A stretch of 64,000 bases of DNA, from NCBI RefSeq assembly GCF_003688855.1, contig NZ_REFW01000002.1, positions 496,001 to 560,000 on the forward strand. The letters are read 5' to 3'. Shown here in pieces: positions 4,311 to 59,994 of this stretch. The notes under the pieces are model-generated. The model made no database searches, was not told where the DNA came from, and worked only from the letters and a program-made list of their open reading frames with translations. Made by a program: the position numbers and the translations under genes. Source of the DNA: Tessaracoccus antarcticus. Lineage in GTDB: Bacteria > Actinomycetota > Actinomycetes > Propionibacteriales > Propionibacteriaceae. Position 1 is the stretch's first letter; each line of letters opens with the position of its first letter.

Positions 4311-4372
4311 GTCGCATCGTGCCTGGTCCACCCACACTGCGCAATTCCCCACCCCACCCCAGGACTGATGCC

Positions 4373-6793
4373 ATGACCACCACCATCGCCCGGAAGTCGG
4401 TCCCGCCGACTCCACACCACACACCGTCGCTGAGCCCAGAAGAGTTGCACTCAATGAATGCCTACTGGCGTGCAGCCAACTATCTCGCGGTCGGCCAGAT
4501 CTACCTGTATGACAACCCCCTGCTGAAGCGACCCTTGGTGCTCTCGGATGTCAAACCCCTGGTGGTCGGCCACTGGGGCACGACGCCCGGCCAGAATTTC
4601 ATCTACGTCCACCTGAACCGGGTCATCAAGAAGCATGACCTTGACATGTTCTACATCGCCGGACCCGGGCACGGTGGGCCAGCGCTGGTGGCCAACACCT
4701 ACCTGGAGGGCAGCTACTCCGAGATCTACCCCGACGTCAGCCAGGACGAAGCCGGTCTGAAGAAGCTGTTCACGCAGTTCTCCTTCCCCGGGGGCATCTC
4801 CAGCCACGTCGCGCCCACCACACCGGGCTCCATCCATGAGGGCGGCGAGCTCGGATACTCACTCAGCCACGCATTCGGTGCCGCCTTCGACAATCCCGAC
4901 CTGATCGTCGCCTGCGTAATCGGTGATGGTGAGGCTGAGACCGGACCGCTGGCCACGGCATGGCAGTCCACGAAGTTCCTCAACCCGGTCACCGACGGTG
5001 CGGTGGTTCCCATCCTCCACCTCAACGGGTACAAGATCAGCAACCCCACCATCCTGTCCCGCATCGAGCACGAAGAGCTGGACCAGTTCCTGCGTGGTTG
5101 CGGTTGGGACCCTCGCTATGTGGAGGGGGACGACCCGGAAACCATGCACGAACTGATGGCGTCGGTGGTCGACGACACCATCGAGGCCGTGCGCGCCATC
5201 CAACTCGACGCGCGCACCAGCGGCGATACGTCCCGACCGCGATGGCCAATGATCGTACTGCGATCACCCAAGGGCTGGACGGGGCCGAAGGTGGTCGACG
5301 GTCTACCGAACGAGGGCACTTTCCGCTCCCACCAGGTGCCGCTGTTGGTGGATGAGGCCCATCCCGGGAACGTTGAACATCTCGAGACCTGGATGCGGAG
5401 CTACAAGCCGGAGGAGTTGTTCGACGCCGACGGGCACCTGCTGCCCGAACTGTCGACGCTCGCCCCGACGGGCCACCGCCGGATGGGCTCCAACCCCCAC
5501 ACCAACGGTGGCTTGTTGCTGCGTGACCTTCGGATGCCCGATTTTCGGGAACACGCAGTGGAGATTCCCGCACCCGGTGCCGTGGAGGCGAGTGACACCT
5601 CCGTGCTGGGGCAATTTCTGCGGGACGTCGTCACCCTGAACCAGCACCGCCACAACTTGCGGATCTTCGGCCCGGACGAGACGTTGTCCAACAAACTCGG
5701 CGCCGTGTTCGAGGTGACCGACCGCCAGTGGGAGGCCCGTACCGTCGACACCGATGAATTTTTGGCCCCCTCCGGGCGGGTGCTGGATTCGATGCTGTCG
5801 GAGCACCAGTCGCAGGGCTGGCTGGAGGGATATCTGCTCACCGGGCGCCACGGTCTGTTCAACTGCTACGAAGCGTTCATCCACATCGTCGACTCCATGT
5901 TCAACCAGCACGCCAAGTGGCTCAAGATCACCAAGGCGCTCCCCTGGCGACGCGACATTTCCTCGCTGAACTACCTGTTGGCCTCCCACGTCTGGCAGCA
6001 GGACCACAACGGCTTCACCCACCAGGACCCGGGCTTCCTGGACCACGTCGTGAACAAGAAGGCCGACATCGTCCGGGTCTACCTCCCGCCGGATGCCAAC
6101 TGCCTGCTCTCGGTTGCGGACCACTGCCTCCGGAGCCGTCACTACGTCAACGTGATCGTCGCCGGCAAGCACGCCATGCCCCAGTGGCTCACCATGGACG
6201 AGGCGGAAGTGCACTGCACCAAGGGCATCGGGATCTGGGAGTGGGCAAGCAACGACCACGGGTCCGAACCCGACATCGTCCTGGCCTGCTGCGGGGACAC
6301 CCCGACCCTGGAAGTGCTGGCCGCCGTGTCGATCCTGCGCGAGCACCTGCCCGAGTTGAAGGTCAGGGTCGTCAATGTCGTGGACCTCATGAAGCTGCAG
6401 TCAGAGAGCGAGCACCCGCACGGCCTGTCCGACAGCGACTACGACTCATTGTTCACCAAGGACAAGCACATCGTGTTCGCGTTCCACGGATATCCCACCC
6501 TGATCCACCGCCTTACCTACCGACGGACCAATCGCAACCTGCACGTGCGCGGCTACAACGAGGAAGGCACCATCACCACTGCCTTCGACATGCGGGTACA
6601 GAACCGGCTGGACCGCTTTCACCTGGTGCAGGACGTCATCGATCGGCTTCCACAGCTCGGCGCCACCGGCGACTACCTCAAACAAGCGATGGCAGACAAG
6701 CTCATCACCCACAACCTCTACATCAACAAGCACGGCAAGGACCTTCCTGAGATCCGTGACTGGATGTGGGAGACCGACAGGGGTCAGAAATGA
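4373..6793 (+). CDS. xfp: Phosphoketolase (xylulose-5-phosphate/fructose-6-phosphate)
   Basis: 806 residues, normal length for bacterial phosphoketolase. It is a thiamine-diphosphate enzyme that splits xylulose-5-P or fructose-6-P with phosphate into acetyl-phosphate plus glyceraldehyde-3-P or erythrose-4-P. Family motifs are clear: [36 protein letters not shown] and the cofactor motif [14 protein letters not shown]. The start is set at the ATG at 4373 (MTTTIARKS) with AGGA upstream; an in-frame GTG at 4319 would add 18 Pro-rich residues with no ribosome-binding site. Its TGA overlaps the ATG of the H+-ATPase (ATGA), so the two are translationally coupled. It begins a four-gene operon. Acetyl-phosphate gives ATP through acetate kinase, which is not encoded here. 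Confidence 0.96.
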
Positions 6794-9312
6794 CACCTCA
6801 CGCCCCGGCCAGCCCGGCCGCCCCTGCGACAACGCACGATGCGGCAGCCAGCCTGACGACGATGCCCCTGGCCGAGGTGGAGAAGCAACTGGAGACCTCG
6901 GCTGACGGCCTGAGCGCGACGGAGGCGGCCAAGCGGCTGGAGCAGTACGGCCCCAATGAGATCGCCGAGCACCACACCAACGCACTGCTCACGTTCTTGT
7001 CCTACTTCTGGGGCCCGATCCCGTGGATGATCGAGGTGGCCGTCATCCTCTCGGGGGTCGTGGGGCACTGGGCCGACTTCTTCATCATTCTGGTGCTGCT
7101 GTTGGCCAATGCACTGGTCGGATTCCTCGAGGAACGCCAGGCCGGTAACGCTATCGAGGCGTTGCGCGGCAAGCTCGCCGTCACGGCCCGGGTGAGACGA
7201 GACGCCGCATGGGTCACCCCCGCTGCCCGCGACCTGGTGCCGGGGGACGTCATCCGCCTCCGGTTGGGCGACATCGTCCCCGCCGATGCCCGACTCCTGG
7301 AGGGCGACGAGATCGAGGTTGACCAGTCCGCTCTCACCGGCGAGTCGTTGCCCATCACGTGTGCTGCCGGGAATCCCGTGTACTCCGGGTCCATCATCCG
7401 CAGGGGCGAGATCGGCGCTCTGGTCTATGCCACGGGCACCCACACCTACTTCGGAAAGACAGCCGAACTCGTGCAGGATGCCCACACCGTCAGCCATTTC
7501 CAGAAGGCCGTGCTGAAGATCGGCAACTACCTCATCATCCTCGCGGCAGGCTTCGTTGCCGTGATCATCGTGGTGTCCCTGCTCCGCGGAAACCCCGTCG
7601 TGACCACCCTGCAGTTCGCGCTCGTCCTGACAGTGGCGGCAATCCCCGTCGCGATGCCGACCGTGCTGTCGGTGACGATGGCTGTGGGCGCTCGTCTGCT
7701 GGCCGCCAAACAGGCCATCGTCTCCAAGCTCGTGGCCATCGAGGAGCTCGCCGGGGTCGACATCCTCTGCGCCGACAAGACAGGCACCCTGACCCGCAAC
7801 ACCCTGACGCTGGGTGAACCGTTCTGCGCCGAAGGAATCACGGCTGCCGAGGTGACCACCGCTGGGGCGCTGGCCTCCCGGGCCGACGACGACGACCCCA
7901 TCGATCTCGCCGTCCTGGGTGGGCTGAGCGACGCAGACGATCTCCAGAGCTACACCGTGACGCACTTCGTGCCCTTTGACCCGGTCCACAAGCGCACCGA
8001 GGCCACCGTCACCGCGGGCGACGAGGCCTCGTTCAAAGTCAGCAAGGGCGCACCCCAGGTGATCCTGGCGTTGGCGGCCGACGCCGCCGCGATCGCCCCC
8101 ACCGTCAACGGGGCCGTCAACGACTTCGCCGCACGTGGTTTCCGCTCCCTCGGTGTGGCGCGAGCAGAGGATGGTGGCAACTGGCATTTCCTGGGTGTGT
8201 TGCCGCTGTTCGACCCACCGCGCGAGGACGCAGCCTCCACCATCGCGACCGCCCAGGCCATGGGCGTGAGGGTGAAGATGGTGACAGGTGACGCCCTGGC
8301 CATCGCCAAGGAGACGGCCACCAAGGTTGGTCTGAACAGCAGCATCCTCGACGCCGCCGGTCTCGGCGACTCGAAAAAAACCGAGGACGAGGCGACAGGA
8401 CAGGCCATCGAGAAGGCCGACGGCTTCGCCCAGGTTTTCCCCGAACACAAGTACCACATCGTCGACGTCCTCCAACAGCGCGGACACATCGTCGGGATGA
8501 CGGGCGACGGCGTCAATGACGCCCCCGCACTCAAGAAGGCGGACTGTGGCATCGCGGTGTCCGGCGCCACGGATGCCGCTCGTGCAGCCGCCTCGATCGT
8601 CCTCCTCACCCCCGGGTTGTCGGTGATCATCGACGCCATCAAGGAGAGCCGCAAGATCTTCCAGCGGATGAACAGCTACGCCACCTATCGCATCGCCGAG
8701 ACGCTGCGGGTTCTGCTGTTCGTGACGCTGGCCATCCTCGTGTTCAACGTTTTTCCGGTCACCGCGATCATGATCGTGATGCTGGCGCTGCTCAACGACG
8801 GCGCGATCCTCTCGATCGCCTACGACAACGTTGTGTACCGAAGCCAACCTGAGGCCTGGAACATGAAGACGGTGCTGGGGATCGCCACCGTGCTGGGCGT
8901 CGTCGGTCCGATCGCGGCCTTCGGGCTTTTCTACCTCGGCGAGAAGGTATTCCACCTCGAGCATCCCCAACTGCAGACGATGATGTACCTCATGCTGTCG
9001 GTCGCCGGGCACCTCACCATCTTCCTCACACGCACCCGGGGGCCCTTCTGGTCCATCCGCCCTGCGCGGATCCTGGTGTTGGCAGTGCTCGGCACCCAGA
9101 TCGTCGCCACCCTCATCGCCGTCTACGGTCTGTTCATGACCCCCCTGGGGTGGGGATGGGCGGCCCTGGTCTGGGGTTACGCGATTGTCTGGGCCCTGCT
9201 CAGCGACCGCATCAAGCTTCTGGCGTACCGGATCCTCGACCCGGTGCCCGCCCCCAAGCCGTCACCTGTGAACAGCGGCACACAGGCCGCCGGAGGAAAG
9301 GACAACGCATGA
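6790..9312 (+). CDS. Plasma-membrane-type P-type H+-transporting ATPase (P3A)
   Basis: 840 residues. It exports protons at the expense of ATP. The landmarks of a P-type ATPase are present: TGES (183-186), the phosphorylated DKTGTLT (D329) and GDGVND (572-577), with two N-terminal helix pairs and six C-terminal helices. The M6 motif LALLNDGAI carries D670, which matches the proton-binding Asp of plant and fungal H+-ATPases and separates this class from K+, Ca2+ or heavy-metal pumps. The fungal and plant C-terminal autoinhibitory tail is missing; the protein ends in a short Pro/Ala tail. The start ATG at 6790 overlaps the xfp stop. Next to a phosphoketolase it suggests pH homeostasis under acid-producing metabolism (inference). 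Confidence 0.93.
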
Positions 9313-9944
9313 CCACTCAGGAGGTTCCCTACATGATCGGGGCCACGATCACTGGAGACGACGGCCCGTGTGGCACCCTGGACAGGGTGGTGCTCGACCC
9401 CGTCGTCAAGGCCGTCACCCACGTCGTGGTGAGGTCACCCCATCACCTCGGGTCACCCCGGCTGGTGCCGGTCGAACTCCTGGAACTCTTCAGCGAGGGA
9501 ACCGACCTTTTGCGGTTCCACGGCACGGTCGGGGACTTCTTCCGGTTGGCCATCGTCGAGGAGACCCATTTCATTGCAGCCCCGCCCGGTTTCAGCGACT
9601 ACGACCAGGCATTGCTGTGGCCCTACTTCGAGGGCAAGTCGGCACCCCCAAGCATGACCGGGATGGTCACTGAGGACCACCTTCCGATGGGCGAGGTGGA
9701 CATCCGACGCGGCGACACCGTCCACGCCACCGACGGCGAGATCGGTCTTGTGCAGGGACTCGTGGTCAATACCGCCAGCCACGTGACGCATCTCCTCCTC
9801 CAGGAAGGACATTTTTTCGGACGCAAGGAGGTCTCCATTCCCATCAGTGCCGTCACGAACATCTCGAACGGGGTCGAGCTGAGTATGTCGAGGGATCAGA
9901 TTCGTGACCTCCCCGCCGTTGAGCACGAGGGATCCGGCACATGA
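9309..9944 (+). CDS. PRC-barrel domain protein
   Basis: 211 residues with two PRC-barrel-like repeats: residues about 5-75 (GATITGDDGPCGTLDRVVLDP...) and about 130-195 (RGDTVHATDGEIGLVQGLVV...). PRC barrels are small beta-barrels of photosynthetic reaction-centre H subunits, RimM and many stress proteins. They bind proteins or RNA and have no known catalysis. The ATG at 9309 overlaps the ATPase TGA and has a strong GGAGGAAAGG upstream. The role is unknown; the operon position suggests it could modulate the pump or respond to the same signal. An in-frame upstream extension inside the ATPase gene was discarded. Confidence 0.8.
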   Translation: MTTQEVPYMIGATITGDDGPCGTLDRVVLDPVVKAVTHVVVRSPHHLGSPRLVPVELLELFSEGTDLLRFHGTVGDFFRLAIVEETHFIAAPPGFSDYDQALLWPYFEGKSAPPSMTGMVTEDHLPMGEVDIRRGDTVHATDGEIGLVQGLVVNTASHVTHLLLQEGHFFGRKEVSIPISAVTNISNGVELSMSRDQIRDLPAVEHEGSGT

Positions 9945-9957
9945 GACACGCAGTCAG

Positions 9958-12339
9958 ATGGCCGCAGGGATGATCACCCACCCGGCGTACACCGTCGAGC
10001 CGTGGTGCCTGCGCGAGACAGGCCTCCATCTTGACCTGCTGGCCCAGAGCGAGTCGCTCTTCGCGCTGGGCAACGGCCACATGGGGTGGCGGGGGAATCT
10101 CGATGAGGGTGACCCGCACGGGGTGCCGGGGAGCTACCTGGCAGGCGTGTACGAGTCCCGGCCGTTGCCCTACGCCGAGATTGGCTTCGGCTATCCCGAG
10201 GCTGGCCAGACCGTGGTCAACGTGACCAACGGCAAGCCGATCCGGCTGTTGGTCAACGACCACCCCTTTGACGTCCGCTACGGCGAGCTCCGCTCCCATG
10301 AGCGGGTACTCGATTTCCGTTCCGGGTTGCTGAGCCGATCCGTCGAATGGGTGAGCCCCGGCGGTCAGGCAATTGCTGTGCGTTCGACGAGGCTGGTCTC
10401 GTTGGTGCAGCGGAGCATGGCGGCCATCCACTTCGAGATCGAGTCGCTCGGCTCCACCATCTCAGTGGTGCTGCAGTCCGAGCTGGTGGCCAACGAGATT
10501 GGCTCATCCGCGTTCGCTCCAGACGCCGGTGACGACCCCCGCAGCACCGCCGACATCGGCTCAGTGCTGGTGGGGGAGCAGCACGAGCACCACGACCTGC
10601 GCGCCTACCTCCTGCACAGCACAGCCGTGAGTGGTCTGCGCGTGGTCGCCGCCATGGACCATGCGGTTGATGCCCCGGATGGCGTCCGCACCATCACCGA
10701 GACCTCACCAGATCTCGCTCGGGTCAGCGTCATGGTGACGCTTGCGCCTGGGCAGCGGCTGCGGCTGGTGAAGTACGTGGCCCACGGATGGTCGGGGGTC
10801 CGGTCCCGACCCGCCCTCCGGGACCAGGCGGCGGCCGCCCTCTCCGCCGCGGTTCACTCGGGGTGGGACGGCCTCGTCTCGGAGCAACGCGCCTACCTGG
10901 ACGACTTCTGGGCACGAGCCGATGTCGAGGTGGACGGGGACGAGGCGGTGCAGCAGGCCGTCCGCTTCGGTCAGTTCCACATCCTGCAAGCAGCATCCCG
11001 CGCCGAGGGCCGGGCCATCGCCGCAAAGGGGCTGACCGGGCCGGGGTACGACGGCCACGCATTCTGGGACACAGAGATCTTCGTGCTTCCCCTCCTCAGC
11101 CACGCGTGTCCGGCGGCGGCTGTGGACGCACTGCGGTGGCGGCGCTCCATCCTCCCTCTGGCCCTGGAGCGGGCCAGTCAACTGGGCCTGGCCGGGGCAG
11201 CCTTCCCCTGGCGGACCATCGCCGGCCACGAGTGTTCGGGGTACTGGCCGGCGGGGACGGCCGCGTTCCACGTCGGCGCAGACGTTGCCGCCGCTGCGAT
11301 CCGTCACGTGGATGCCACGGGCGACCTCGTCTTCGAGCGCGACGTTGCCCTCGAACTGCTGGTGCAGACCGCGCGATTGTGGTGCTCGCTCGGTCATCAC
11401 GACACCCAGGGGCAGTTCAGAATCGACGGTGTCACCGGCCCCGACGAGTACTCGGCGGTCGCCGACAACAACGTCTACACGAATCTGATGGCGCAGCAAA
11501 ACCTTGCCGCAGCGGCGGAGCTGGCCCTGAAGTACCCCGTGCAGGCTGGCCGGTTGCGGGTCACGGCCCCGGAGATCGCAGCCTGGCGGGGGGCCGCAAC
11601 AGCAATGTATGTTCCGTGGGACGAAGCACTTGGCGTCCACCCTCAGGCCGACGGGTTCACCCATCACCAGGTGTGGGACTTCGCGGCCACCGCGCCCGAG
11701 CAGTACCCGCTCCTCCTGCACTTCCACTACTTCGACCTGTACCGCAAGCAAGTCGTGAAACAGGCAGATCTGGTGTTGGCGATGTACCTGCGCCCCGAGG
11801 CTTTCACGGCCGAACAGAAGGCACGGAACTTCGCCTACTACGAGGCCATCACGGTGCGCGACTCCTCGTTGTCCGCCTGCGTCCAATCGGTTCTGGCAGC
11901 GGAGACGGGGCACATCGAACTTGCGCACGACTACCTCGGGGAGGCGGCCCTCCTTGACCTGAATGATCTGGAGCACAACACGCGCAGCGGCCTTCACCTC
12001 GCAGCGCTGGCAGGCACCTGGATCGCTCTGGTGCCGGGCCTCGGGGGGCTTCGCGAGCACGGCACCGTGTCGTTCTCGCCGCGGCTGCCAGAGCGCCTCA
12101 CACGGTTGGCGATCAACCTCGCGGTCCGGGGGCGACTCCTCAGGGTCGAGATTACCCACGAGCAGACCCTGTATCGGCTCGTGAAGGGTGAGCCGCTTGA
12201 AGTGAGCCACGATGGCACCATCATTCAGCTCAACGTCGCCGAACCCGTGAGATGCCCGACGAGTCAGCCCGCCACCATCACGACTCTCCACCAGCCTGCC
12301 GGCCGCGCCCCGACCCGGAGGGGCCGCGACGCGCCGTAG
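9958..12339 (+). CDS. Glycoside hydrolase family 65 disaccharide phosphorylase
   Basis: 793 residues with the GH65 layout: an N-terminal beta-sandwich, the (alpha/alpha)6 catalytic barrel from about residue 340, and a short C-terminal beta domain. The general-acid glutamate is in VTGPDEY (E497); GYDGHAFWDTE and KQADLVLAMYL are family motifs. GH65 enzymes phosphorolyse maltose, trehalose, kojibiose or related alpha-glucosides to beta-glucose-1-P plus sugar. The substrate cannot be assigned, and no beta-phosphoglucomutase is adjacent. The start is uncertain: ATG 9958 is used, ATG 9970 matches the usual family N-terminus (MI-HPAY), and GTG 9904 has the best ribosome-binding site (GAGGG) but overlaps the previous gene. 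Fourth gene of the xfp operon. Phosphorolysis saves an ATP, which fits an energy-economy theme (inference). Confidence 0.9.
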   Translation: MAAGMITHPAYTVEPWCLRETGLHLDLLAQSESLFALGNGHMGWRGNLDEGDPHGVPGSYLAGVYESRPLPYAEIGFGYPEAGQTVVNVTNGKPIRLLVNDHPFDVRYGELRSHERVLDFRSGLLSRSVEWVSPGGQAIAVRSTRLVSLVQRSMAAIHFEIESLGSTISVVLQSELVANEIGSSAFAPDAGDDPRSTADIGSVLVGEQHEHHDLRAYLLHSTAVSGLRVVAAMDHAVDAPDGVRTITETSPDLARVSVMVTLAPGQRLRLVKYVAHGWSGVRSRPALRDQAAAALSAAVHSGWDGLVSEQRAYLDDFWARADVEVDGDEAVQQAVRFGQFHILQAASRAEGRAIAAKGLTGPGYDGHAFWDTEIFVLPLLSHACPAAAVDALRWRRSILPLALERASQLGLAGAAFPWRTIAGHECSGYWPAGTAAFHVGADVAAAAIRHVDATGDLVFERDVALELLVQTARLWCSLGHHDTQGQFRIDGVTGPDEYSAVADNNVYTNLMAQQNLAAAAELALKYPVQAGRLRVTAPEIAAWRGAATAMYVPWDEALGVHPQADGFTHHQVWDFAATAPEQYPLLLHFHYFDLYRKQVVKQADLVLAMYLRPEAFTAEQKARNFAYYEAITVRDSSLSACVQSVLAAETGHIELAHDYLGEAALLDLNDLEHNTRSGLHLAALAGTWIALVPGLGGLREHGTVSFSPRLPERLTRLAINLAVRGRLLRVEITHEQTLYRLVKGEPLEVSHDGTIIQLNVAEPVRCPTSQPATITTLHQPAGRAPTRRGRDAP

Positions 12340-12495
12340 CGCCTGTGCTTTTCTCGCACCTTTCGGCTCCTTGGCATCGTTCACGAACCCGCATGTTCCG
12401 CCGGGGCAGGGACCCTGCGACTTCCACTGGTTCTGCTGGGTTCGTGCGGCGGGCTAACCGACCCCGCTGGCGCAGCGGCCGGTTCAAAAGCGTAC

Positions 12496-12510
12496 GATAC
12501 ACAGTGTATC
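12496..12510. promoter_or_regulatory. Perfect 15-bp palindrome, putative TetR operator of the KS/AOS cluster
   Basis: GATACAC-A-GTGTATC is a perfect 7-1-7 inverted repeat 42 bp before the ketosynthase ATG. It overlaps a -10-like TACGAT (12493-12498) and lies in the short 213-bp gap 12340-12552, which otherwise holds no gene. Size and symmetry suit a dimeric TetR protein, and a TetR gene closes the cluster. No second copy was noticed near the TetR gene itself. Confidence 0.6.
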
Positions 12511-12552
12511 CAGATGAGGATGCCAGTGATTCCAGAAGCGATCGGGGGCCGT

Positions 12553-13929
12553 ATGGCCACGAACCTCATAGCGGTGACGAGTGTTGCGGCGCGCTGCGCC
12601 GGTGCTGAGAATGCAGACGAGTACTGGCGACTTCTTCAGGCTGCGCGTCCGCAGTTCCGCAGCGTCCCCAGCGACAGGTGGGCCGCGCGACCAACAATCA
12701 GGGTGCCCGGCAGCAACAACCGCAGCTACTCCCACGTCATGGCCCCGATGCAGGATCCGTTTGCTTTCGATGCGCAGCGGTTTCGTGTTCCCCGTGCCCG
12801 CGCGATGCGCATGGATCCCCAACAACGACTGGCAGTCTCGCTCACGGACGAACTGTTCGAGCGCTCCCGAGGCGACCCCCGGGAGGCATCGGGGGGGCGC
12901 GTCGCCACAGTGGTAGGTGTCAGTTCCACCGACTACAGGTCGATCAGCGCAGCACCTTTGCTGGCGGAGGCGACTGTTGATGGCTCCCTCGGCGTCGGGA
13001 ATGGCTCCGAACGAGCCGCGGTCACGGCAGCGGCGACACGGGCCGTGAAGCCCATGAGTGGCCACACGATGTCCGGTGTGCTCGCCAACATGGTCGCCGC
13101 AGCGGTCCAATCGGTCTTCGACCTCACCGGCCCGGCCTTCACCGTTGATGCGGCGTGCGCCTCGAGCCTGACGGCACTCGACATTGCCTGTTCACTGCTG
13201 TCGCAGGGGAGAGTGAATGCGTGCATCACGGGTGGGGTCTACACCACGCTGACGTCGGAGGCACACGTGGGGTTCTCCGCCGTTGGCGCGCTCTCGCCCA
13301 GCGGAAAATGCCGACCGTTCACGTCCTGCGCCGACGGTTTCGTCATAGGTGAGGGCGGAGCGCTCCTGCTGTTGAAGCGATTCGAGGACGCGGCCCGATC
13401 CGGTGACCACATCCTTGGGGTGATTGAGGCCATCGGTTCGTCCAACGATGGTCGCGCCCCCGGAGTGATGACCCCCACTGTCAAGGGCCAGGTGTTGGCA
13501 ATCCGGGAGGCGCTGACCGTGCGGGGGCAGGAGTCCCTCAGGGTCGACGCCATCGAGGGGCACGGTACCGGCACGACGGTCGGGGACCAGGCGGAACTCG
13601 AAACCCTCCTCGAAGTGTGTGACCCCGATGCAGGACGTCCCACACTCCTTGGGTCCGCCAAGGCGATCATCGGCCACACCATGGCCGCATCTGGTGCCCT
13701 GGCGCTCGTCAAGGCGCTGCTCGCACTGGAGAACAACTCCTGGCCACCCCAGCCGTCCCTTGACGTCTCCGAGCCTCACCCGTTGCTGGAGGGGGCCCCG
13801 TTCAGGCTCGCTGGAGAGAAGTGCGCCGAGACTCCGTTGAGGAGGGTGGCAGTGAATTCCTTCGGGTTCGGCGGCACGAACTGCCACGTCATCCTCGCCA
13901 CCCCACATGAGGTGGAATCGCATGCATGA
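12553..13929 (+). CDS. Stand-alone type I PKS-like beta-ketoacyl synthase
   Basis: 458 residues, a single ketosynthase domain without an attached carrier protein or acyltransferase. The active site is intact: nucleophile C202 in VDAACASS, H337 in EGHGTGT and H375 in KAIIGHT, so it should catalyse decarboxylative elongation rather than act as a KSQ loading domain. The sequence style (PFTSCADGFVIGEGG, NSFGFGGTNCHV) is that of modular or iterative type I polyketide synthases, not FabF. The ATG at 12553 has GGGGG at the right spacing, and the family similarity begins there; ATG 12514 is an alternative. It overlaps the next gene by eight bases. First gene of a compact cluster in which KS and AT-ACP sit on separate proteins. 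I infer that it elongates the chain carried by the downstream ACP. Confidence 0.9.
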   Translation: MATNLIAVTSVAARCAGAENADEYWRLLQAARPQFRSVPSDRWAARPTIRVPGSNNRSYSHVMAPMQDPFAFDAQRFRVPRARAMRMDPQQRLAVSLTDELFERSRGDPREASGGRVATVVGVSSTDYRSISAAPLLAEATVDGSLGVGNGSERAAVTAAATRAVKPMSGHTMSGVLANMVAAAVQSVFDLTGPAFTVDAACASSLTALDIACSLLSQGRVNACITGGVYTTLTSEAHVGFSAVGALSPSGKCRPFTSCADGFVIGEGGALLLLKRFEDAARSGDHILGVIEAIGSSNDGRAPGVMTPTVKGQVLAIREALTVRGQESLRVDAIEGHGTGTTVGDQAELETLLEVCDPDAGRPTLLGSAKAIIGHTMAASGALALVKALLALENNSWPPQPSLDVSEPHPLLEGAPFRLAGEKCAETPLRRVAVNSFGFGGTNCHVILATPHEVESHA

Positions 13930-16900
13930 CACCGCACTGATCCTCCTGTCCGCAGCGACAGAGAGGGAACTGAGAACCACAGCGGGAGAACTCGCCGGTG
14001 AGGTTGAGCGGTACCGCACGCGCCTTCCGCACCAGGAGGCCTCCGACGCAGCATGGCTGCAGGGACTCTCCGCGCGGACGTCGCTCAAGGCGACGCAACC
14101 ACATCGAGCCGCCGTCCTCGCGGACAGCCTCGAGCAACTCCACACACGGCTGTGTTCCATCCACAGCGGCGAGATCGCGTCGTGCGCGAGACTCCTCACC
14201 GACGGCGCGTCGACAGCCCACGTCAGCCACGATGCACAGGCCGTGTTCCTGTATCCCGGCCAAGGCAGTCAACGAGTCGGCGAGAGCTCAGAACTGGCGG
14301 CTGGAGTGCCGCGATTCGCGGCAGCCGTCCGAGACCTGGAGGAACGGTTCACCAGTCCGTCGCTGGTTCCATTCCTCTCCGGGGCGTGGGGCCACCCGCT
14401 CGACGCCCAGCTCCAGGAAGACGTGAATGACACGACGATCTCGCAGCCCCTGCTGTCGGTCCTGGCCATCGCCACCACGGAGACGCTGGCCGATCTCGGA
14501 GTCCACCCGAGCATCACCCTGGGTCACAGCGTGGGGGAGATCGGCGCCCTCCACGGGGCAGGAGTCATCGACTCCGACACAGCCCTTGGTCTCATCCAGG
14601 ACCGCGTCTTCTGCATGAGGAAGGCGGCCCCCGCCTCCGGGATGATCGCGGTGCGCGCCAGCGCCGGTGCGCTCCACGACGTGCTCGAAGGGGCACCCGG
14701 GGTATTCCTCTCGTGCGACAACGGTCCGCACCAAGTGGTTCTCGGAGGGACGGACACCGCCCTGCACACACTGGAGCGACAGCTCGACTCCGCCGGAGTG
14801 CGCTTCACGCGGTTGCACACGTCCGCTGCTTTCCACACCCCGCTCTTTGCGACAGCCGACGCAGAGTTCCGGCGACGCATCGCAGCACGACCGTGGAGTT
14901 CCACCCCCTGTGAAGGCGCCGTGACCTGCGTGTCCTCGGTCACCGCGCGCAACGTGGTGACGGCCGAACAGGCGAGCCAGGGCCTCGGACATCAGCTTTC
15001 AGGCACCGTCCGGTTCCGCGAGGCCGCCCGGAAAGCCCAGGAAAACAACCCCGATGTCCTCGTCCAGCTCAGCGGCGGGGTCTCGTTGATGCGGATGTAT
15101 CGCCAGACCAATCCCGAGTTCACCGGACGTGAGATCGGCATGGGTGGCAGCCATGACACGCGCGCAGGAATGGCAGCGTGCGTCGGTGAAATGTTCCTGT
15201 CATTCCACAACTTCCAGGCCCACAAGATTCTGAACAGCAAGGGGATTGCCAGCATGACGTCAACACAGGCATGGACCAGCGAGAACAGCGTCGTACGAAC
15301 TCTCATCGACCCTCCACTCGACGACGCGCCCTCGGGAGCGATGCCGCCGGCAGCCCCACCCCTGCCACGGGATGTCGGGGGAGAGGGGATTACCCAGGAC
15401 CTGCTCGGTCTCTTCCGGGAGCAGATCGCCACCCTGTCCTGCGTGCTGTCACCCGCTGCGCACCCATGGCCCCGCGCACGCAACCAGCAGTCAGTGGATG
15501 TCCTCCCGGCAGCGGAGCCCAACGCCCGAGAATCGACGGCGTCCCCTGCGGCACAGCAGGCAGAGGTGTCCGGTCAGGTGACCCGGATCATCGCCGACAT
15601 CGGCGGGTACAACGTCTCGGACATCAACACGGGCGCCAGACTGGGAACCGACCTCGGCTTCGATTCGCTCACCATGACCAACGTGCACGCGGCGCTGACA
15701 CGTCAGTTCCCTGCATGGAAACCCAGCGAGTCGCAACTCGGCTCCATCAGGACAATCGACGATCTTGCACGGACCATCACCGGCACTCCCGTCGACGATG
15801 AACACCCGGCCCGCCCGTCCCTGCCTGCCCGCACCACCGTTTCGACGGTGGCAATGTCGAGCGGCCCCGTCGGGAAGGCGGAGCGGTTCAGTGACGCTGC
15901 CACACCGGAAACCGGGCGGCTCACCACCCTGCCCGACGTCCAGGAGACGGTGGACAAGATCCGTGCGGCCAAAAAATCCCGGGTGCAGCTTCCCTACTAC
16001 GTGGAGCACCAGAGCGTGGCGGCGGCAACGACCACCATCGCTGGTGAGGAGTTCCTCAGCTTCAGCTCCTACAACTACCTCGGCCTTGCCGGCCATCCGC
16101 ACGTCGTGGCCGCGGTGCATGCCGCCGTCGACACGTACGGCACCTCCTGCTCGGCCGCGCGGATACTCTCCGGCAACCGGCCCATCCACAACGAGTTGGA
16201 GCGCTCCATAGCGAGTCTTGTCGGCGCCGAGGATTCCGTGGTCCTTGTCGGCGGCCACGGCACCAATGCGAGCATCATCCCACTCCTCTACGGGAACTCC
16301 GATGTTGTCTTCCATGATGCGCTGTCCCATGACAGCATCCATCAGGGGATCAAGGCATCCGGAGCGGTTCGCCATTCATTCCCGCACAACGACATCGATC
16401 AACTCGACAGGGCACTCGCCGCCCGGCGCAAGCACTTTCGTCGCGCACTGATCGTCACCGAAGGCATCTTCAGTATGGACGGGGACCTCGCAGACCTGCC
16501 CGCCATCGTCCGCGTCGCTCGGAAGCACGGGGCCCACATCATGGTGGACGAAGCGCACAGCATCGGGGTCCTGGGGGCCACCGGCGGTGGCATCTGTGAA
16601 GAACTTGGGGTCGACCCCTCCGAGATTGACATCCTGATGGGGACCCTCTCCAAAAGCATGGCCAGCTGCGGGGGCTACATAGCGGGTGGCGCACCCTTCA
16701 TCCAGCACCTCCGCTACTCCCTCTCCAGCCTCGTGTTCAGCGCTGCCATCACCCCCGCCAACACGGCAGCGGCCCTGGCTGCCATCGAACAGCTGCGCAG
16801 CGAACCCGAGCGCCTGCACCGGCTGCGGGAGAACTCGCTCCACTTCGTGGAGGGTGCCCGCGCCCGCGGCCTCAACATCGGCAACGCCTGCGGCGTCCCC

Positions 16901-17119
16901 GTCGTGCCCGTGATCCTGGGGGACTCGGACGCGGCGATTGGCGTGGCAAACACGCTGTACCGCCAGAGAATCAGCGTGAATCCCATCATTTACCCGGCCG
17001 TGTCCAACGACCTTGCCCGTCTGCGCTTCTTCCTCACGTCCGAGCACACGATCCAACAGCTGGACCGTGCACTCGACCTGACGTCCGAGGCAGTTCACGG
17101 GATCGCTCGTGCAGCGTAG
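13922..17119 (+). CDS. Acyltransferase-ACP-alpha-oxoamine synthase fusion
   Basis: 1065 residues with three domains. Residues about 105-410: malonyl-CoA:ACP acyltransferase, with PGQGSQ, nucleophile S203 in GHSVGE, R228 where FabD has its carboxylate-binding Arg, and H305 in AAFH, the malonyl-type motif. Residues about 550-620: acyl carrier protein, pantetheine site S582 in LGFDSL. Residues about 670-1060: PLP-dependent alpha-oxoamine synthase, with DEAHS (876-880) and Schiff-base K911 in TLSKS. Such domains condense an acyl thioester with an amino acid, losing CO2, as in KAPA synthase, serine palmitoyltransferase, CqsA, SxtA and PigH. The inferred role is to load malonyl, carry the chain built by the partner KS, and release it as an alpha-aminoketone. 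GAGGTGG six bases upstream fixes the ATG at 13922. Amino-acid substrate and chain length are unknown. Confidence 0.93.
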   Translation: MHDTALILLSAATERELRTTAGELAGEVERYRTRLPHQEASDAAWLQGLSARTSLKATQPHRAAVLADSLEQLHTRLCSIHSGEIASCARLLTDGASTAHVSHDAQAVFLYPGQGSQRVGESSELAAGVPRFAAAVRDLEERFTSPSLVPFLSGAWGHPLDAQLQEDVNDTTISQPLLSVLAIATTETLADLGVHPSITLGHSVGEIGALHGAGVIDSDTALGLIQDRVFCMRKAAPASGMIAVRASAGALHDVLEGAPGVFLSCDNGPHQVVLGGTDTALHTLERQLDSAGVRFTRLHTSAAFHTPLFATADAEFRRRIAARPWSSTPCEGAVTCVSSVTARNVVTAEQASQGLGHQLSGTVRFREAARKAQENNPDVLVQLSGGVSLMRMYRQTNPEFTGREIGMGGSHDTRAGMAACVGEMFLSFHNFQAHKILNSKGIASMTSTQAWTSENSVVRTLIDPPLDDAPSGAMPPAAPPLPRDVGGEGITQDLLGLFREQIATLSCVLSPAAHPWPRARNQQSVDVLPAAEPNARESTASPAAQQAEVSGQVTRIIADIGGYNVSDINTGARLGTDLGFDSLTMTNVHAALTRQFPAWKPSESQLGSIRTIDDLARTITGTPVDDEHPARPSLPARTTVSTVAMSSGPVGKAERFSDAATPETGRLTTLPDVQETVDKIRAAKKSRVQLPYYVEHQSVAAATTTIAGEEFLSFSSYNYLGLAGHPHVVAAVHAAVDTYGTSCSAARILSGNRPIHNELERSIASLVGAEDSVVLVGGHGTNASIIPLLYGNSDVVFHDALSHDSIHQGIKASGAVRHSFPHNDIDQLDRALAARRKHFRRALIVTEGIFSMDGDLADLPAIVRVARKHGAHIMVDEAHSIGVLGATGGGICEELGVDPSEIDILMGTLSKSMASCGGYIAGGAPFIQHLRYSLSSLVFSAAITPANTAAALAAIEQLRSEPERLHRLRENSLHFVEGARARGLNIGNACGVPVVPVILGDSDAAIGVANTLYRQRISVNPIIYPAVSNDLARLRFFLTSEHTIQQLDRALDLTSEAVHGIARAA

Positions 17120-17735
17120 TGAAGGCCAGGTCCTCACCCTCCCCGATGGGGTGAGGGTCCTCGTTCTGCGGGACGCGACTGACTGGAGGGCCGAGACGGC
17201 CACCCGCCTGCTCCTGCAGATCACCGCGGCGGCAGCGACACCGGAACACCGCATCCCGGCGGAGCAGCGGGGCCGACTCATCTCGGAGCTGCTCATGCCC
17301 GGGCGCTTCATGGTCGGGGGAGACGTGGGCGGCAGACGCACGGCGCTGGGAGTCTCGGCTTCCCATGAAGGTCGGGACACGTTCGTTGCCTGTTCTGCTG
17401 GCCCGGTGGTCATTGATGCCTGTGCTGTGTACCGGTGGCCGGAGATCCAGGGAGCCGCGACCGTCGCCTTCACATGGGATGAACGGCACGTACTCAGACA
17501 CCCCTGGGACTGGTGCCGTGCTTGGACGGCGTTGGAATGTCGTGCGAAACGTCAGGGGACGAGCCTGCTGGCGAGGACGCCACGAGAACCCCTACTGCAC
17601 CCAACGTCCACCGGCGACCTCCACTTCGGTGACGTCTGGCACGTGAACCACCCTCCATCCGCAACAAGCGTGAGGAACAGAATATGTCTAGGAATAATGT
17701 CCAGCCCGCCACGGCCAACGAGACCACGCGCATGA
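17109..17735 (+). CDS. Divergent 4'-phosphopantetheinyl-transferase-like protein
   Basis: 208 residues with no strong family match by eye, but the order and spacing of motifs resemble Sfp-type phosphopantetheinyl transferases: GVSASH (81-86) for the substrate motif (VS-SH), VVID (100-103) for the GVD metal motif, and WTALECRAK (139-147) for the WxxKExxxK helix. E143 and K147 are conserved; the Lys before the Glu is replaced. Such an enzyme would convert the ACP domain of the preceding protein to its holo form. The GTG at 17109 overlaps the previous stop by 11 bases and has GGGA six bases upstream. Its C-terminus overlaps the next gene by 52 bases. It could also be a degenerate, inactive relative. 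Confidence 0.6.
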   Translation: MQRSEGQVLTLPDGVRVLVLRDATDWRAETATRLLLQITAAAATPEHRIPAEQRGRLISELLMPGRFMVGGDVGGRRTALGVSASHEGRDTFVACSAGPVVIDACAVYRWPEIQGAATVAFTWDERHVLRHPWDWCRAWTALECRAKRQGTSLLARTPREPLLHPTSTGDLHFGDVWHVNHPPSATSVRNRICLGIMSSPPRPTRPRA

Positions 17736-18673
17736 TGTCCGGGAGAGTCGCGGTGATCGGGTCCAGCGGGCAGATCGGCGCCCTTGTCACCGACCAGCTC
17801 GTGGCTCAGGGCATGGCTGTGCGTGCCATCTCCCGATCGACGACACAGACCCGGGACGACGCCGGCGTCGAGCAGAAGACCATCCACGCGTACACACGTG
17901 AGGAGTTGGGCAGGGCCCTGGCCGGGTGCACCCACGTGATTTCAACACTCGGCCTTCCCTACAACGCCCGCATCTGGCAGCGGGAATGGCCCTCCATGAT
18001 GGATGAGCTTCTCAACGCCTGCCACATGAATTCGCTGCCGCTCACCGTCCTCGACAACATGTATGTCTACGGACGGGCAGCCTCCCCCATCACCGAGGAC
18101 TCGAACCTTGCCCCGTGCAGCCGGAAGGGGGAGGCGCGACTCGAGGGCTGGCGTCGAATGCACGCGTTCCAGCAACGCGGCATGGATGTGGTGGTGTGCC
18201 GGGCTGCAGACTTCATCGGTCCCGGTGCAGAGACCACCATCCTCCCCTGGAGCGGCATCGCAGCGGTCCTGCACTCTGGGCACGGTGCGCTGCGGTGGCT
18301 GGGCGACCCCGGGTTCATGCACTCCTTCTCCAACACCGTGGACATCGCCGGGGCGCTTGTCGACGTCTGCGCACGAAGCGAAATGCGCCGTCACGATGTG
18401 ATCCACCTTCCAGCCGTTGACGCGTTCTCGGGCCACGAGTTCCAGGATCGCCTCAGCAGGGTTGCGGGCCGTGGCATCACGCTTCACGCCACCCCTTCCC
18501 GCCTTGTCCGCCTCGCGGGAATCTTCAGCGGACCGGCGCGCGAGCAGAGTGAAATGATGTATCAGGTGGAGCGTGACTACGTTGTGAGCGACGCTCGCTA
18601 CCGGGAACTGACTCCACAGTCTCCCCATCGGAGCATCCTGGGCTGTCTCGAGCAATGGGCGCAGATGGCCTGA
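17684..18673 (+). CDS. NAD(P)-dependent epimerase/reductase (extended SDR type)
   Basis: 329 residues with an N-terminal Rossmann fold: VAVIGSSGQIG (GxxGxxG at residues 26-32), a downstream ISTLG turn and a DNMYVYG motif typical of NAD-dependent epimerase/dehydratase-like extended SDRs. The Tyr of VYG takes the usual catalytic place. The start ATG at 17684 has AGGA at a good distance; ATG 17732 (ATGA overlap with the previous stop) is an alternative that would shorten the N-terminus by 16 residues. As the last plus-strand gene of the KS/AOS cluster it is a likely tailoring enzyme. I infer reduction of the ketone of the released aminoketone, but the substrate is unknown. It ends four bases before the convergent TetR gene. 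Confidence 0.82.
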   Translation: MSRNNVQPATANETTRMMSGRVAVIGSSGQIGALVTDQLVAQGMAVRAISRSTTQTRDDAGVEQKTIHAYTREELGRALAGCTHVISTLGLPYNARIWQREWPSMMDELLNACHMNSLPLTVLDNMYVYGRAASPITEDSNLAPCSRKGEARLEGWRRMHAFQQRGMDVVVCRAADFIGPGAETTILPWSGIAAVLHSGHGALRWLGDPGFMHSFSNTVDIAGALVDVCARSEMRRHDVIHLPAVDAFSGHEFQDRLSRVAGRGITLHATPSRLVRLAGIFSGPAREQSEMMYQVERDYVVSDARYRELTPQSPHRSILGCLEQWAQMA

Positions 18674-18677
18674 TTGA

Positions 18678-19361
18678 TCAGCCTTTTGGCATCGCGATGA
18701 CCTGGAGAAGCCGTTCCAGGGCCTTGGCGGCCCCGTTCTCGCCCTCAGAGAACTGGCCCATCGAGACGGCGCCCAACTCCTGCTCGTACAGCCCCACAGC
18801 AAGGATGACCACGTCCCGAAGGGGGAGCAGCAGGCGGGTGCTGGTCCGCTCGAGGAGCTCACCGAGGACCACTTCCAACTGGCGGTAGAGGTCTTCCTGA
18901 GCCGCCTGCAGTACCCGCCTGGCTTCTGCATGCCTGACGCTTGCGCCCCTCAGCTCGGTGACGAGGCCATACCACCGAGCTTCTTCGGTGCTCCCGAACT
19001 GGAGGCGTCGCAGGGCGCCGGGAATGACCGTCGCGATCTCGACCGGCGAAGAGGGATTGAGTGCGTGGAGTTCGCTCAGCGTCTCAACAACAGCCTTCCG
19101 AATTTCGTGGGATTGTCGCTGGTTCGCCTGGAGGTAGATCGCCTCAATGAGTTCTTCTTTGGAGCGGAAATTTGAATAAAAGGCGCCTCGCGTGAAACCC
19201 GCTTTTTCGCACACCCCCTTGATGGTTGTCTTCAGGTACCCCGCTTCGCGGAACTCGTTGTAGGCGGTGGTGAGGAGTTTTTCGCGGGTGACGTCGCGCC
19301 GTAGCGCTTTGGTGCCCTGCGACGCGGCCAGCGGTGCACTCGCTTTGTCATCCATGGTGCT
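18678..19361 (-). CDS. TetR-family transcriptional regulator
   Basis: 227 residues. An N-terminal TetR DNA-binding domain is clear (TREKLLTTAYNEFREAGY ... CEKAGFTRGAFYSNF, then SKEELI). The C-terminal half is the usual divergent helical ligand-binding domain. The GTG at 19361 is used because GGAGG lies five bases upstream; an in-frame ATG at 19394 would add 11 residues without a good ribosome-binding site. It is convergent with the SDR gene with a four-base gap and sits at the edge of the KS/AOS cluster. By position it is the likely repressor of the cluster, with the palindrome at 12496-12510 as candidate operator (inference). Confidence 0.87.
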   Translation of the reverse strand, partial: STMDDKASAPLAASQGTKALRRDVTREKLLTTAYNEFREAGYLKTTIKGVCEKAGFTRGAFYSNFRSKEELIEAIYLQANQRQSHEIRKAVVETLSELHALNPSSPVEIATVIPGALRRLQFGSTEEARWYGLVTELRGASVRHAEARRVLQAAQEDLYRQLEVVLGELLERTSTRLLLPLRDVVILAVGLYEQELGAVSMGQFSEGENGAAKALERLLQVIAMPKG

Positions 19362-19504
19362 CACAGCTTCCTCCGCGTCTGATCCGTCACTCATTGCCCA
19401 TGCAGGGTACCGGCAGGCGAAACCACCGCCAGCCGTCAGGGTGCCCCTCGTTGGCTACATCACGAGATCCGGTGTGATCGGGGGACCATGGAGAACCTGC
19501 TCCA

Positions 19505-19903
19505 GTGCCGACATGCACGGCCGCATCCGCAGCGTCCCCGCCAAGGCCCGGATGTCGTTCACGGCCAAGCAGCTCAACACCTTCGGTCGTCGTCGGCGGC
19601 ACGCAGGCGACGTCCGCCGTGCTGCTGTTCGCACGCCGCGAATCAGCGTTGCGGTGGTCGGCGGTGGCGGCTTTCGGGATGCTGATCTGGATCATCTCGG
19701 AGATCGCACTCATCCATGCGTTTACGCTCGCACAGACCATCCACGTCGCCTCCGGACTGCTCCAGCTCATGCTGGTGTCGGCGCTGCTGGGCGTTGCACC
19801 CTGGCTCGCCGGGGAACAGCCCCTGGTGCCACGCCCGGTGTCGGATCTTCCTCTGCGGTCAGCCGTTGCCCTCGGCAAAGATGCGCCACGGCTGCGTGGG
19901 TGA
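19505..19903 (+). pseudogene. Possible remnant of a small membrane protein
   Basis: The 464-bp gap 19395-19858 contains a 132-codon frame whose middle (residues about 35-100) reads like a real membrane protein: two or three hydrophobic helices (GMLIWIISEIALIHAF, SGLLQLMLVSALLGVAPWL) separated by short charged turns, similar in style to small actinobacterial membrane proteins. The first 30 residues are Pro/Ser/Arg-rich and out of character, as if a frameshift or truncation removed the true N-terminus. The 3' end overlaps the next gene on the other strand by 45 bp. No ribosome-binding site was recognised. I treat it as a decayed gene. Confidence 0.3.
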
Positions 19904-20323
19904 GCTGCGCACCAGCAGGTAGCCCCAATCGGTGTATCCGGGCGGCATCGAGATGTCGCCGTGGAAGACGCGCCAACCCACGTCGAACGTCACAGGGACG
20001 TTCACCACCTCGTCCGGTGCCGTGCGGCCCGACCAGGCGGGATCCTCCACGTTGTGGTTCGCCACCTGAGCGTTGTCGATGTGGGCGACCGATGCGCACC
20101 ACGTCTCGCCCTTGGGGGCCGTCGTCAATGCCTGCACCGTGTCGCAGTCATGGGCGTCGAGTGCCTGCAGGTAGACCTCCACCACCTGCTCAGGGGAGGC
20201 GTCATCGGTGGGCATGTCGATGTTCTTGGCCTGGTTCATGAGAAGGATGTAGACGATGACCACCACGGCGATCGCGGCGGCCACCCACAGTGGGGCGGTG
20301 GCCCGCCGTGAGCGCTTCTCCAT
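19859..20323 (-). CDS. Small membrane-anchored protein of unknown function
   Basis: 154 residues. Residues about 12-33 are one transmembrane helix after a basic start (MEKRSRR), so the rest is probably outside the membrane. Residues about 45-150 (SPEQVVEVYLQALDAHDCDTVQAL... ending PWRIFAEGNG) follow the pattern of small NTF2/SnoaL-like lipoprotein-type domains common in actinobacteria, with two cysteines. The ATG at 20323 has GGGAAGG eight bases upstream; the longer frame to 20452 is discarded. It lies 85 bp downstream of otsA on the same strand and may be cotranscribed. I cannot give a function. Confidence 0.7.
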   Translation of the reverse strand: MEKRSRRATAPLWVAAAIAVVVIVYILLMNQAKNIDMPTDDASPEQVVEVYLQALDAHDCDTVQALTTAPKGETWCASVAHIDNAQVANHNVEDPAWSGRTAPDEVVNVPVTFDVGWRVFHGDISMPPGYTDWGYLLVRSSPTQPWRIFAEGNG

Positions 20324-20408
20324 GGAACACACCTTCCCTGCGACCGCCGTCAGCGGCGTCGGTTCTCCTGATGATGGGAAGACGTGCCGGTGGAGGGGTT
20401 CGCATGCA

Positions 20409-57311: not shown

Positions 57312-58568
57312 TCAGGCCTTGCCCGGGGTGATGTTCTGGTTCGTCACGACGACGGCAACGTTGTGGCCGCCGAAGCCGAACGAGTTGTTGATGGCCGCCA
57401 GGTCGCCGGCCGGCAGGTCGCGGACGGTGGTGGCGATGTCGATGCCGAGGTCTGGCTCCAGGGACTCCACGTTGATGGTGGCCGGCACCTTGCGATCATG
57501 AAGTGCCATGACGGTGGCGAAGGTCTCCAGCGCACCGGCGCCGCCCAGCAGGTGGCCCGTCATCGACTTGGTGCCGGTGACCACCACGGAATCCGACTGA
57601 CCCCCCAGGGCAGCGCGGATGGAGGAGGCCTCGGTGATGTCGCCCTGCGGCGTCGACGTGGCGTGGGCGTTGACGTGGTTGATGTCACGGGGGGAGAGGC
57701 CGGCCTCCGCGAGCGCCCTCTTCATCGCGAGGGTCTGGCCGTAGCCGACGGGGTCCGGCTGCACCATGTCGTGGGAGTCGGCAGAGATGCCGGCGCCTGC
57801 GATGGTGCCGTAGATCCGGGCGCCGCGTGCCAGTGCGTGCTCCAGTGTCTCGATGACCATGAGGACGGCGCCCTCACCGAGCACGAAGCCGTCGCGGCCA
57901 GTGTCCCAGGGGCGGGAGGCGCGCTCGGGTTCATCGTTGCGTCGGGACAGGGCCTGCATGTTGCTGAACGCCGCCAGGGGCAGCGGGTGGATGACGGCCT
58001 CGCTACCACCGACGACGGCGATGTCGGCCCGCCCCAGGTGGAGCATGTCCACGCCGAGCGAGATCGCCTCGTTCGAGGATGCGCAGGCCGATACCGGCGT
58101 GTGGATGCCCGCACGGGCACCGATCTTCAGACCGATGTTGGCGGCCGGGGCATTGGCCATGAGCATCGGGATGGTGAAGGGGGACACGCGGCGTGGGCCC
58201 TTGTCCTTCTGGACGTCCCAGTTGCCCAGCAGGGAGTGCAGGCCACCGATCCCGGTGCCGCACACCACTCCCAGGCGGTCGCGATCCACTGAGTTCTCCT
58301 CGCCGGGCTCGAAGCCGGCGTCACGCCACGCCTCCATGGCGGCCACGAGGGCCAACTGGGAGGAACGGTCCAGGCGGCGGGCCTCGACGCGGTCAATGTT
58401 CGGCTCGACGGCCACGTGGGCGGCGATGCGTACGGTGAGGTCGGCGGCCCAGTCCTCCTCCAGGAGGCGGACGCCTGAACGGCCGGCCATGAGGCCTTCC
58501 CACGTGCTGGGGGCGTCGCCCCCCAACGGGGTGGTGGCGCCGAAACCGGTGATGACGACGGTGGTCAT
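57312..58568 (-). CDS. fabF: 3-oxoacyl-ACP synthase II
   Basis: 418 residues, KAS II. The Cys-His-His triad sits in SACASSNEA, NAHATSTPQGD and KSMTGHLLGGAGA. It elongates acyl-ACP with malonyl-ACP in fatty-acid synthesis. AAGGAG five bases before the ATG. Last gene of the fasR-fabD-fabH-acpP-fabF order known from Streptomyces and relatives. The other fatty-acid enzymes (FabG, FabI, FabZ) are elsewhere. Compare the PKS-like ketosynthase at 12553, which is a different clade. Confidence 0.96.
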   Translation of the reverse strand: MTTVVITGFGATTPLGGDAPSTWEGLMAGRSGVRLLEEDWAADLTVRIAAHVAVEPNIDRVEARRLDRSSQLALVAAMEAWRDAGFEPGEENSVDRDRLGVVCGTGIGGLHSLLGNWDVQKDKGPRRVSPFTIPMLMANAPAANIGLKIGARAGIHTPVSACASSNEAISLGVDMLHLGRADIAVVGGSEAVIHPLPLAAFSNMQALSRRNDEPERASRPWDTGRDGFVLGEGAVLMVIETLEHALARGARIYGTIAGAGISADSHDMVQPDPVGYGQTLAMKRALAEAGLSPRDINHVNAHATSTPQGDITEASSIRAALGGQSDSVVVTGTKSMTGHLLGGAGALETFATVMALHDRKVPATINVESLEPDLGIDIATTVRDLPAGDLAAINNSFGFGGHNVAVVVTNQNITPGKA

Positions 58569-58668
58569 GGGGCTCCTTGGAGACGGTGTGCGGTCAAGTC
58601 GTGGGCTGGGGGTGACGGAGCGGGCAGGTGCTCGCTTCCACGTCGACCGGTCAGGCGGGGCGGTGCGC

Positions 58669-58694
58669 GGGCGGGCCCGGTGAGGGGCCCGCCC
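58669..58694 (-). promoter_or_regulatory. GC-rich hairpin between acpP and fabF
   Basis: GGGCGGGCCC (58669-58678) and GGGCCCGCCC (58685-58694) form a 10-bp perfect stem eight bases after the acpP stop. No T run follows on the minus strand, so it may cut or protect the transcript, keeping acpP mRNA more abundant than fabF (inference). Confidence 0.55.
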
Positions 58695-58701
58695 CGGGGC
58701 C

Positions 58702-58947: not shown

Positions 58948-58960
58948 GTCGGCTCCTTGA

Positions 58961-58978
58961 TGGTGGTGGTGGTGGTGG
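58961..58978. repeat. Six copies of TGG/CCA between fabH and acpP
   Basis: A perfect trinucleotide run (TGG)6 on the plus strand, (CCA)6 on the coding strand, ends three bases before the acpP ribosome-binding region. Length change there could alter the leader spacing; I see no direct sign that it does. Confidence 0.8.
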
Positions 58979-58989
58979 AAGTTGAACGA

Positions 58990-59982: not shown

Positions 59983-59994
59983 CGTGGGTTCTCC

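Follow-up and report, generated by a model that had tools for sequence, protein, structure and literature searches.

RedL, which acts with RedK and RedU in undecylprodigiosin biosynthesis in Streptomyces, joins a dodecanoyl chain, a malonyl unit and glycine into 4-keto-2-undecylpyrroline, and RedK leads from there to 2-undecylpyrrole, as described in the relevant passages of PMC11188435 and PMC12654105. In the first of these passages, condensation of the PigH/RedN type uses serine (PMC11188435). Seven rows for alpha-oxoamine synthase (AOS)-type PLP domains in PKS/NRPS proteins appear in the pertinent part of PMC3870968; they include the A-CP-KS-AT-PLP2 protein of S. griseoviridis, none of them has the order AT-CP-PLP2, and PigH is given there without an acyltransferase (AT). 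A third group is represented by sphinganines derived from a polyketide synthase (PKS), for which an excerpt of PMC12134224 reports that PfSgaB is an AOS with serine palmitoyltransferase activity.

Here we describe an operon that carries an AT, an acyl carrier protein (ACP) and an AOS in one protein, next to a separate ketosynthase (KS). The operon is real and conserved, and the searches made turned up no characterised counterpart; it is an orphan variant of PKS-AOS chemistry of the RedL kind.

Organization of the operon and catalytic motifs

Four genes of the + strand (KS, AT-ACP-AOS, a phosphopantetheinyl transferase (PPTase)-like third gene, SDR) lie head to tail over 6 kb, with overlaps of 8, 11 and 52 bases between consecutive frames, and a TetR gene converges on them. 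The frames and Pfam searches agree with the first-pass annotation, which had listed five genes, the first four overlapping and the fifth a convergent TetR regulator. The window is the whole stretch of 64,000 nucleotides that was analysed. Its features of interest are as follows.

12496-12510, no strand: perfect 7+7 palindrome GATACACAGTGTATC, immediately before the operon; putative TetR operator, weak when taken alone
12553-13929, + strand: KS gene, 458 aa; a longer frame runs from 12514
13922-17119, + strand: AT-ACP-AOS gene, 1065 aa; a longer start lies at 13907
14243-15112, + strand: acyltransferase domain (PF00698, 113.3 bits), with GHSVGE and AFH (AFHTP) motifs
15575-15778, + strand: acyl carrier protein domain (PF00550, 27.7 bits), with the phosphopantetheine Ser in LGFDSL
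16052-17077, + strand: alpha-oxoamine synthase domain (PF00155, 150.1 bits), with the PLP lysine in GTLSK, codon about 16652-16654
17109-17735, + strand: third gene, 208 aa, probable divergent Sfp-type phosphopantetheinyl transferase
17684-18673, + strand: SDR gene, an atypical SDR of the extended (epimerase/NmrA) type that lacks YxxxK but retains Lys148
18678-19394, - strand: convergent TetR-family regulator gene (PF00440, TetR_N, 48.2 bits; ScbR-type model 54.4 bits, cut-off 150)

The KS scored 198.9 bits with PF00109 and 99.7 bits with PF02801, and contains the motifs ACASS, EGHGTGT and IGHT, with the active Cys codon at about 13156-13158. DEAHS and LSK are present in the AOS. In an alignment of 22 proteins, the operon's own included, the AT, ACP (DSL) and AOS motifs are invariant. 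The presence of the catalytic motifs of all four domains, noted at first reading, is confirmed. The AFH motif makes the AT likely to be of the malonyl type; in an excerpt of PMC3908369, IAFH is read as indicating malonyl-CoA.

No KR, DH, ER or other reductive domain was found by Pfam in the operon proteins, and the five proteins contain neither a loading ligase nor a thioesterase. An AMP-ligase/ACP loading part is likewise absent from them; the flanking frames, as partly scanned, gave a family 65 glycosyl hydrolase/phosphorylase (GH65; 9904-12339) and a frame with no family (19859-20332). This domain content bears out a split PKS without reductive domains in which the AOS is the likely releasing domain. 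The AOS remained below the curated NCBIfam cut-offs of the bioF, ALAS, SPT and KBL equivalogs.

The third gene had no match in Pfam even at E 10, ACPS and 4PPT_N included. Aligned with three PPTases, it nevertheless keeps the SxSH, D and W..xExxxK residues invariant; we take these to be the catalytic residues of Sfp-type PPTases. The protein is thus a probable divergent Sfp-type PPTase, in line with the type first assigned to it. BLAST similarity to the PPTases of two related loci described below was weak (E 0.07 for L039, 0.58 for L045). Microcompartment shell and uncharacterised proteins were discarded as candidates, their PDB sequence matches being at E 0.055 or worse. Pfam recognises a single PPTase in the genome and one other PF00109 ketosynthase. 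The latter is encoded in this window too, on the - strand at 57312-60981, as part of a type II fatty acid synthase set (KS, KAS III, AT/malonyltransferase). These counts fit an operon that needs a PPTase and a KS of its own.

The SDR matches the Pfam families NmrA, NAD_binding_10 and Epimerase. It lacks the tyrosine of YxxxK, which in the RedK of one Streptomyces-type genome (G457) stands in YNRSK, and it scores only 28 bits against RedK. The Epimerase match is nevertheless common to both, whereas two Rkp-type SDRs and the SDR of one Pseudomonas Sga-type locus are classical adh_short proteins. Since the YxxxK tyrosine is missing, reduction of the ketone by this SDR, as initially proposed, is unproven. 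Among loci L037-L045, only L041 (genome G194) contains a relative of the operon SDR. It lies at 13378-14328 (- strand), scores 111 bits and adjoins a TetR gene and a frame with KS, ACP and AOS but no AT detected.

Distribution of the operon and its relatives

The AT-ACP-AOS protein gave 695 matches at E <= 1e-20, its own included, from 8000 scored candidates. Among the 120 matches listed, 25 are shorter than 1350 aa, with Auritidibacter, Cellulomonas, Rothia and Raineyella among the named sources, and 95 are longer and have both KS (PF00109) and AOS (PF00155). The long proteins (about 1500 aa; Streptomyces, Actinoplanes, others) have the operon's domains in the operon's order with the KS fused, and those of Streptomyces and Actinoplanes are by identity the nearest kin of the split AT-ACP-AOS proteins. 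We found no characterised member of this one-piece KS-AT-ACP-AOS group. The same domain set occurs in many actinobacteria under the names 'type I polyketide synthase' and '8-amino-7-oxononanoate synthase'.

The same four genes in the same order, with a small third gene, are present in three genomes (G597, G648 and G634) of one genus, very probably Raineyella. In G648 (L063) no more than 274 residues of the KS could be recovered, and its frame looks broken. The gene order may also exist in Cellulomonas, judging from two proteins of Cellulomonas sp. Sa3CUA2 (P0006 and P0130) whose contigs are equally long. With 695 protein matches and a gene order that recurs in another genus, the operon is more than a chance assembly. 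Its description as undescribed is not contradicted: titles and abstract openings of the open-access literature yielded no paper on it. Overall, the reading made at first pass is partly supported: its domain assignments stand, but the RedL analogue, the one-piece relatives and the operon in another genus had been missed.

A search of 35 genomes of the host genus, some of them incomplete, did not find the AT-ACP-AOS protein; the strongest match, in G002, belongs to a different cluster. At E <= 1e-80, matches were obtained in 6 of the 197 genomes of the family: the operon's own, the three of Raineyella type, and two (G002 and G728) in which the matching proteins are RedL-like. In a sample of the class, matches at E <= 1e-120 occurred in 6 of 296 genomes, own included. 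A P0003 search of 394 class genomes returned the own genome only, and a single-sequence scan of genome contigs gave one distant locus.

The surroundings of the one-piece genes vary. In L039 and L045, the gene immediately after the KS-AT-ACP-AOS gene encodes a PPTase, and other genes lie next to the PKS in L042, L043 and L067. The PPTase was thus seen in 2 of the six loci looked at, five of which were scored (all but L044). In L042 (genome G160), the neighbour at 10946-12628 (- strand) encodes an AMP-binding enzyme, possibly a separate loading ligase; the KS of this one-piece protein groups in the tree with the KS of RedL and Sga/Rkp proteins. On a Streptomyces anthocyanicus plasmid (L067), an MMPL-family transporter gene (6247-8544) adjoins the one-piece gene.

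Position of the AOS and KS in trees

In the AOS tree, the operon protein and 22 short relatives, which are the best-matching AT-ACP-AOS proteins, form one clade (100/98). A second tree with 16 of these 23 recovered the clade at 100/99. Rows were dropped from both trees: 12 KBL-like ones from the first and, from the second, 8 one-piece proteins, 7 split proteins and 14 non-PKS AOS (KBL-like and others, including L011 and L013). A branch supported at 100/98 separates the split clade, the one-piece proteins, RedL, the AOS of Sga/Rkp type and four unlabelled rows from one SPT, four KBL-like rows and five PigH/RedN rows. We assigned the labels Sga and Rkp from gene neighbourhood. Within the operon's side, the tree does not rank RedL against Sga/Rkp. 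The operon AOS is 50-56% identical to those of one-piece proteins, 46.6-47.4% to five RedL domains and 45-49% to the Sga/Rkp type, as compared to 37-40% to PigH/RedN, 32-37% to KBL-like proteins and 40% to a single SPT.

In the KS tree, the operon KS and the Raineyella-type KS form a clade (100/97). The KS of RedL and Sga/Rkp fall in another one (100/100), which also takes in a Planktothrix PKS and three one-piece proteins. The missing KS is not confined to the operon's clade, because P0097, a protein of 1100 aa with no KS listed, groups among the one-piece rows in the first AOS tree; its contig of 7275 bases may cut the protein.

Comparison with the Red, Pig, Sga and Rkp systems

Red clusters were sought in 246 genomes of genus g28, taken as Streptomyces, with the ligase-like protein of G002, which itself reaches 922 bits against the NCBIfam RedH model, under the cut-off of 1350. 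Twelve of the 246 genomes matched, and three clusters were examined (those of G457, G577 and G353). The Red names used here rest on similarity to G002 and on what we take to be the Red gene order; a RedK was read in two of the three clusters, those of G457 and G577. In G457, the RedL-like protein consists of AMP-binding, ACP, KS, AT, a second ACP stretch and Aminotran_1_2.

Like RedL, RedK and RedU, the operon combines the order KS-AT-ACP-AOS, the lack of reductive domains, an adjoining SDR and a PPTase-like gene. It departs from RedL in its separate KS, which lies outside the RedL clade, in lacking the AMP-ligase/ACP loading part, and in having Ala in place of Thr at the site discussed below. 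As compared to the RedK system, its SDR has no YxxxK, and the bipyrrole half of the pathway is absent from the five genes. PigJ/PigH and RedX/RedN, which serve that half in prodiginines, pair a separate KS with an ACP-AOS protein and carry out the same kind of condensation; the operon differs from them by its AT and by the placement of its AOS on the opposite side of the tree. SgaAB(C) of Pseudomonas fluorescens MYb115 and the rhizobial Rkp system (sphinganine/capsule lipid) have an AOS on the operon's side and an SDR nearby. The Rkp-type PKS that was scanned (L072 only, those of L070 and L071 being left out) is KS-AT-DH-ER-KR-ACP with a separate AOS, whereas the operon is non-reducing with the AOS fused to AT-ACP.

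Two species of the host genus carry prodiginine-like clusters, in G002 (L037 and L038) and G728 (L065 and L066). They contain RedW, RedX, RedH, RedJ, RedL, RedM, RedN and RedU-like genes, all with NCBIfam scores below the curated cut-offs. No RedK-like gene lies next to RedL in them; an NmrA-type SDR is found in the cluster instead.

One AOS position discriminates between these groups. It is Thr in RedL (5 of 5 rows), Val in KBL-like proteins, Ser in Sga/Rkp and SPT, Cys in PigH, Cys or Ser in RedN, and Ala in the operon. In ALAS, the matching residue selects glycine. All 23 split proteins have Ala, and the other 97 matches listed comprise 48 with Ala, 48 with Ser and 1 outside the search pattern.

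Proposed chemistry and competing explanations

On balance, we lean towards a self-contained pathway that acts in the manner of RedL's KS-AT-ACP-AOS part. The RedL-like later domains and the absence of reductive domains make one extension, release of an amino diketone and closure of a five-membered ring the best-supported reading. An iterative PKS, as first suggested, finds no support: without KR, DH or ER, and with the same domain order as RedL, a single extension is simpler. The RedL-like reading also has on its side the closeness of the RedL AOS, the host type II fatty acid synthase set, the PPTase genes after the one-piece genes of L039 and L045, and the Epimerase match shared with RedK. 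Counting against it are the equally close Sga/Rkp AOS, the KS outside the RedL clade, Ala in place of Thr, the lack of a loading ligase or thioesterase, the distant SDR without YxxxK, and a PPTase beside the PKS in only two of six one-piece loci.

In such a pathway, the PPTase-like protein would charge the ACP and the AT, to judge from its motif, would load malonyl. The free KS would draw a fatty acyl group from acyl-CoA or the host's type II fatty acid synthase, and would condense it once with malonyl-ACP. There being no reductive domain, the chain would stay a beta-ketoacyl-ACP, provided that no reduction occurs in trans. By analogy with RedL, the AOS would then join it to an amino acid with loss of CO2, and the released alpha-amino diketone would close to a pyrrolin-3-one or 3-hydroxypyrrole. 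The atypical SDR may modify the ring or the ketone, possibly giving a 2-alkyl- or 2,5-dialkylpyrrole, and this is the weakest step. More tentatively, we propose that the operon could be a minimal free-standing monopyrrole pathway, in which an acyl chain, one malonate and a non-glycine amino acid are built into pyrrolinones or 2,5-disubstituted 3-hydroxypyrroles with the help of a private PPTase and an SDR that has lost its catalytic tyrosine.

A sphinganine-like lipid is a rather unlikely but serious alternative. Following Sga/Rkp logic, the split PKS would act iteratively with host KR, DH and ER in trans, the saturated chain would be released on serine, and the SDR would reduce the 3-ketone. 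The Sga/Rkp AOS are as close to the operon AOS as those of RedL, PfSgaB has the serine palmitoyltransferase activity reported in the excerpt of PMC12134224, Ala at the discriminating site is compatible with serine, and the host type II fatty acid synthase genes are present. Against this, the fully reducing architecture of L072 with its separate AOS is unlike the operon's, and the three scanned SDRs of Sga/Rkp type are classical. The Sga/Rkp KS also sits in a different well-supported clade from the operon's, though this holds for the RedL KS too.

An improbable explanation is an aminoketone signal of the CqsA type, formed with short or no extension and sensed by the TetR protein. The regulator does adjoin the genes, and the AOS reaches 167.7 bits with the NCBIfam CqsA-like model (cut-off 428). 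However, the KS, AT and ACP motifs are intact, so that extension is expected, and the search for a similar TetR gene next to the Raineyella-type operons detected none. To our knowledge, CqsA-type enzymes are free-standing. A role of the AOS in making biotin or haem precursors (AONS, ALAS), or as a plain glycine acetyltransferase, is hardly credible, since its scores with the bioF (337 bits) and ALAS (223 bits) models are under the curated cut-offs of 426 and 339, it is fused to AT-ACP beside a KS, and it groups with PKS-linked AOS in the tree.

If the monopyrrole reading is correct, the operon and its one-piece relatives would represent a large unexplored actinobacterial family of alkylpyrrole-type metabolites, perhaps signals. 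The operon has a predictable first product and is easy to express. It would also permit a direct test of the amino acid preference of each PKS-linked AOS, and of whether this preference depends on one active-site residue.

Regulation and genomic setting

The palindrome may be the site at which the TetR protein represses the operon. When 1 mismatch to the GATACACNGTGTATC pattern is allowed, 12496-12510 is the only site in the genome (3.65 Mb, 13 contigs); by our own estimate, about 0.1 palindromes of that kind are expected in the scanned stretch. No second copy is present in the window at up to three mismatches, and hence none precedes the TetR gene, nor was a convincing motif common to the operon start and the TetR promoter found. 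No gene similar to this TetR gene was detected beside the operon in Raineyella-type loci.

Composition gave no island signal: GC is 0.60-0.71 in 1-kb windows over positions 1-30000 and 0.62-0.68 across the operon. In three sibling genomes, the stretches around a trehalose-phosphate-synthase-like gene, as read, had no match to the operon or to the GH65 gene. In the window, this GH65 gene lies directly upstream of the operon. A phosphoketolase (XFP) gene is present at 4319-6793, and the next frame, by reading, resembles a P-type ATPase.
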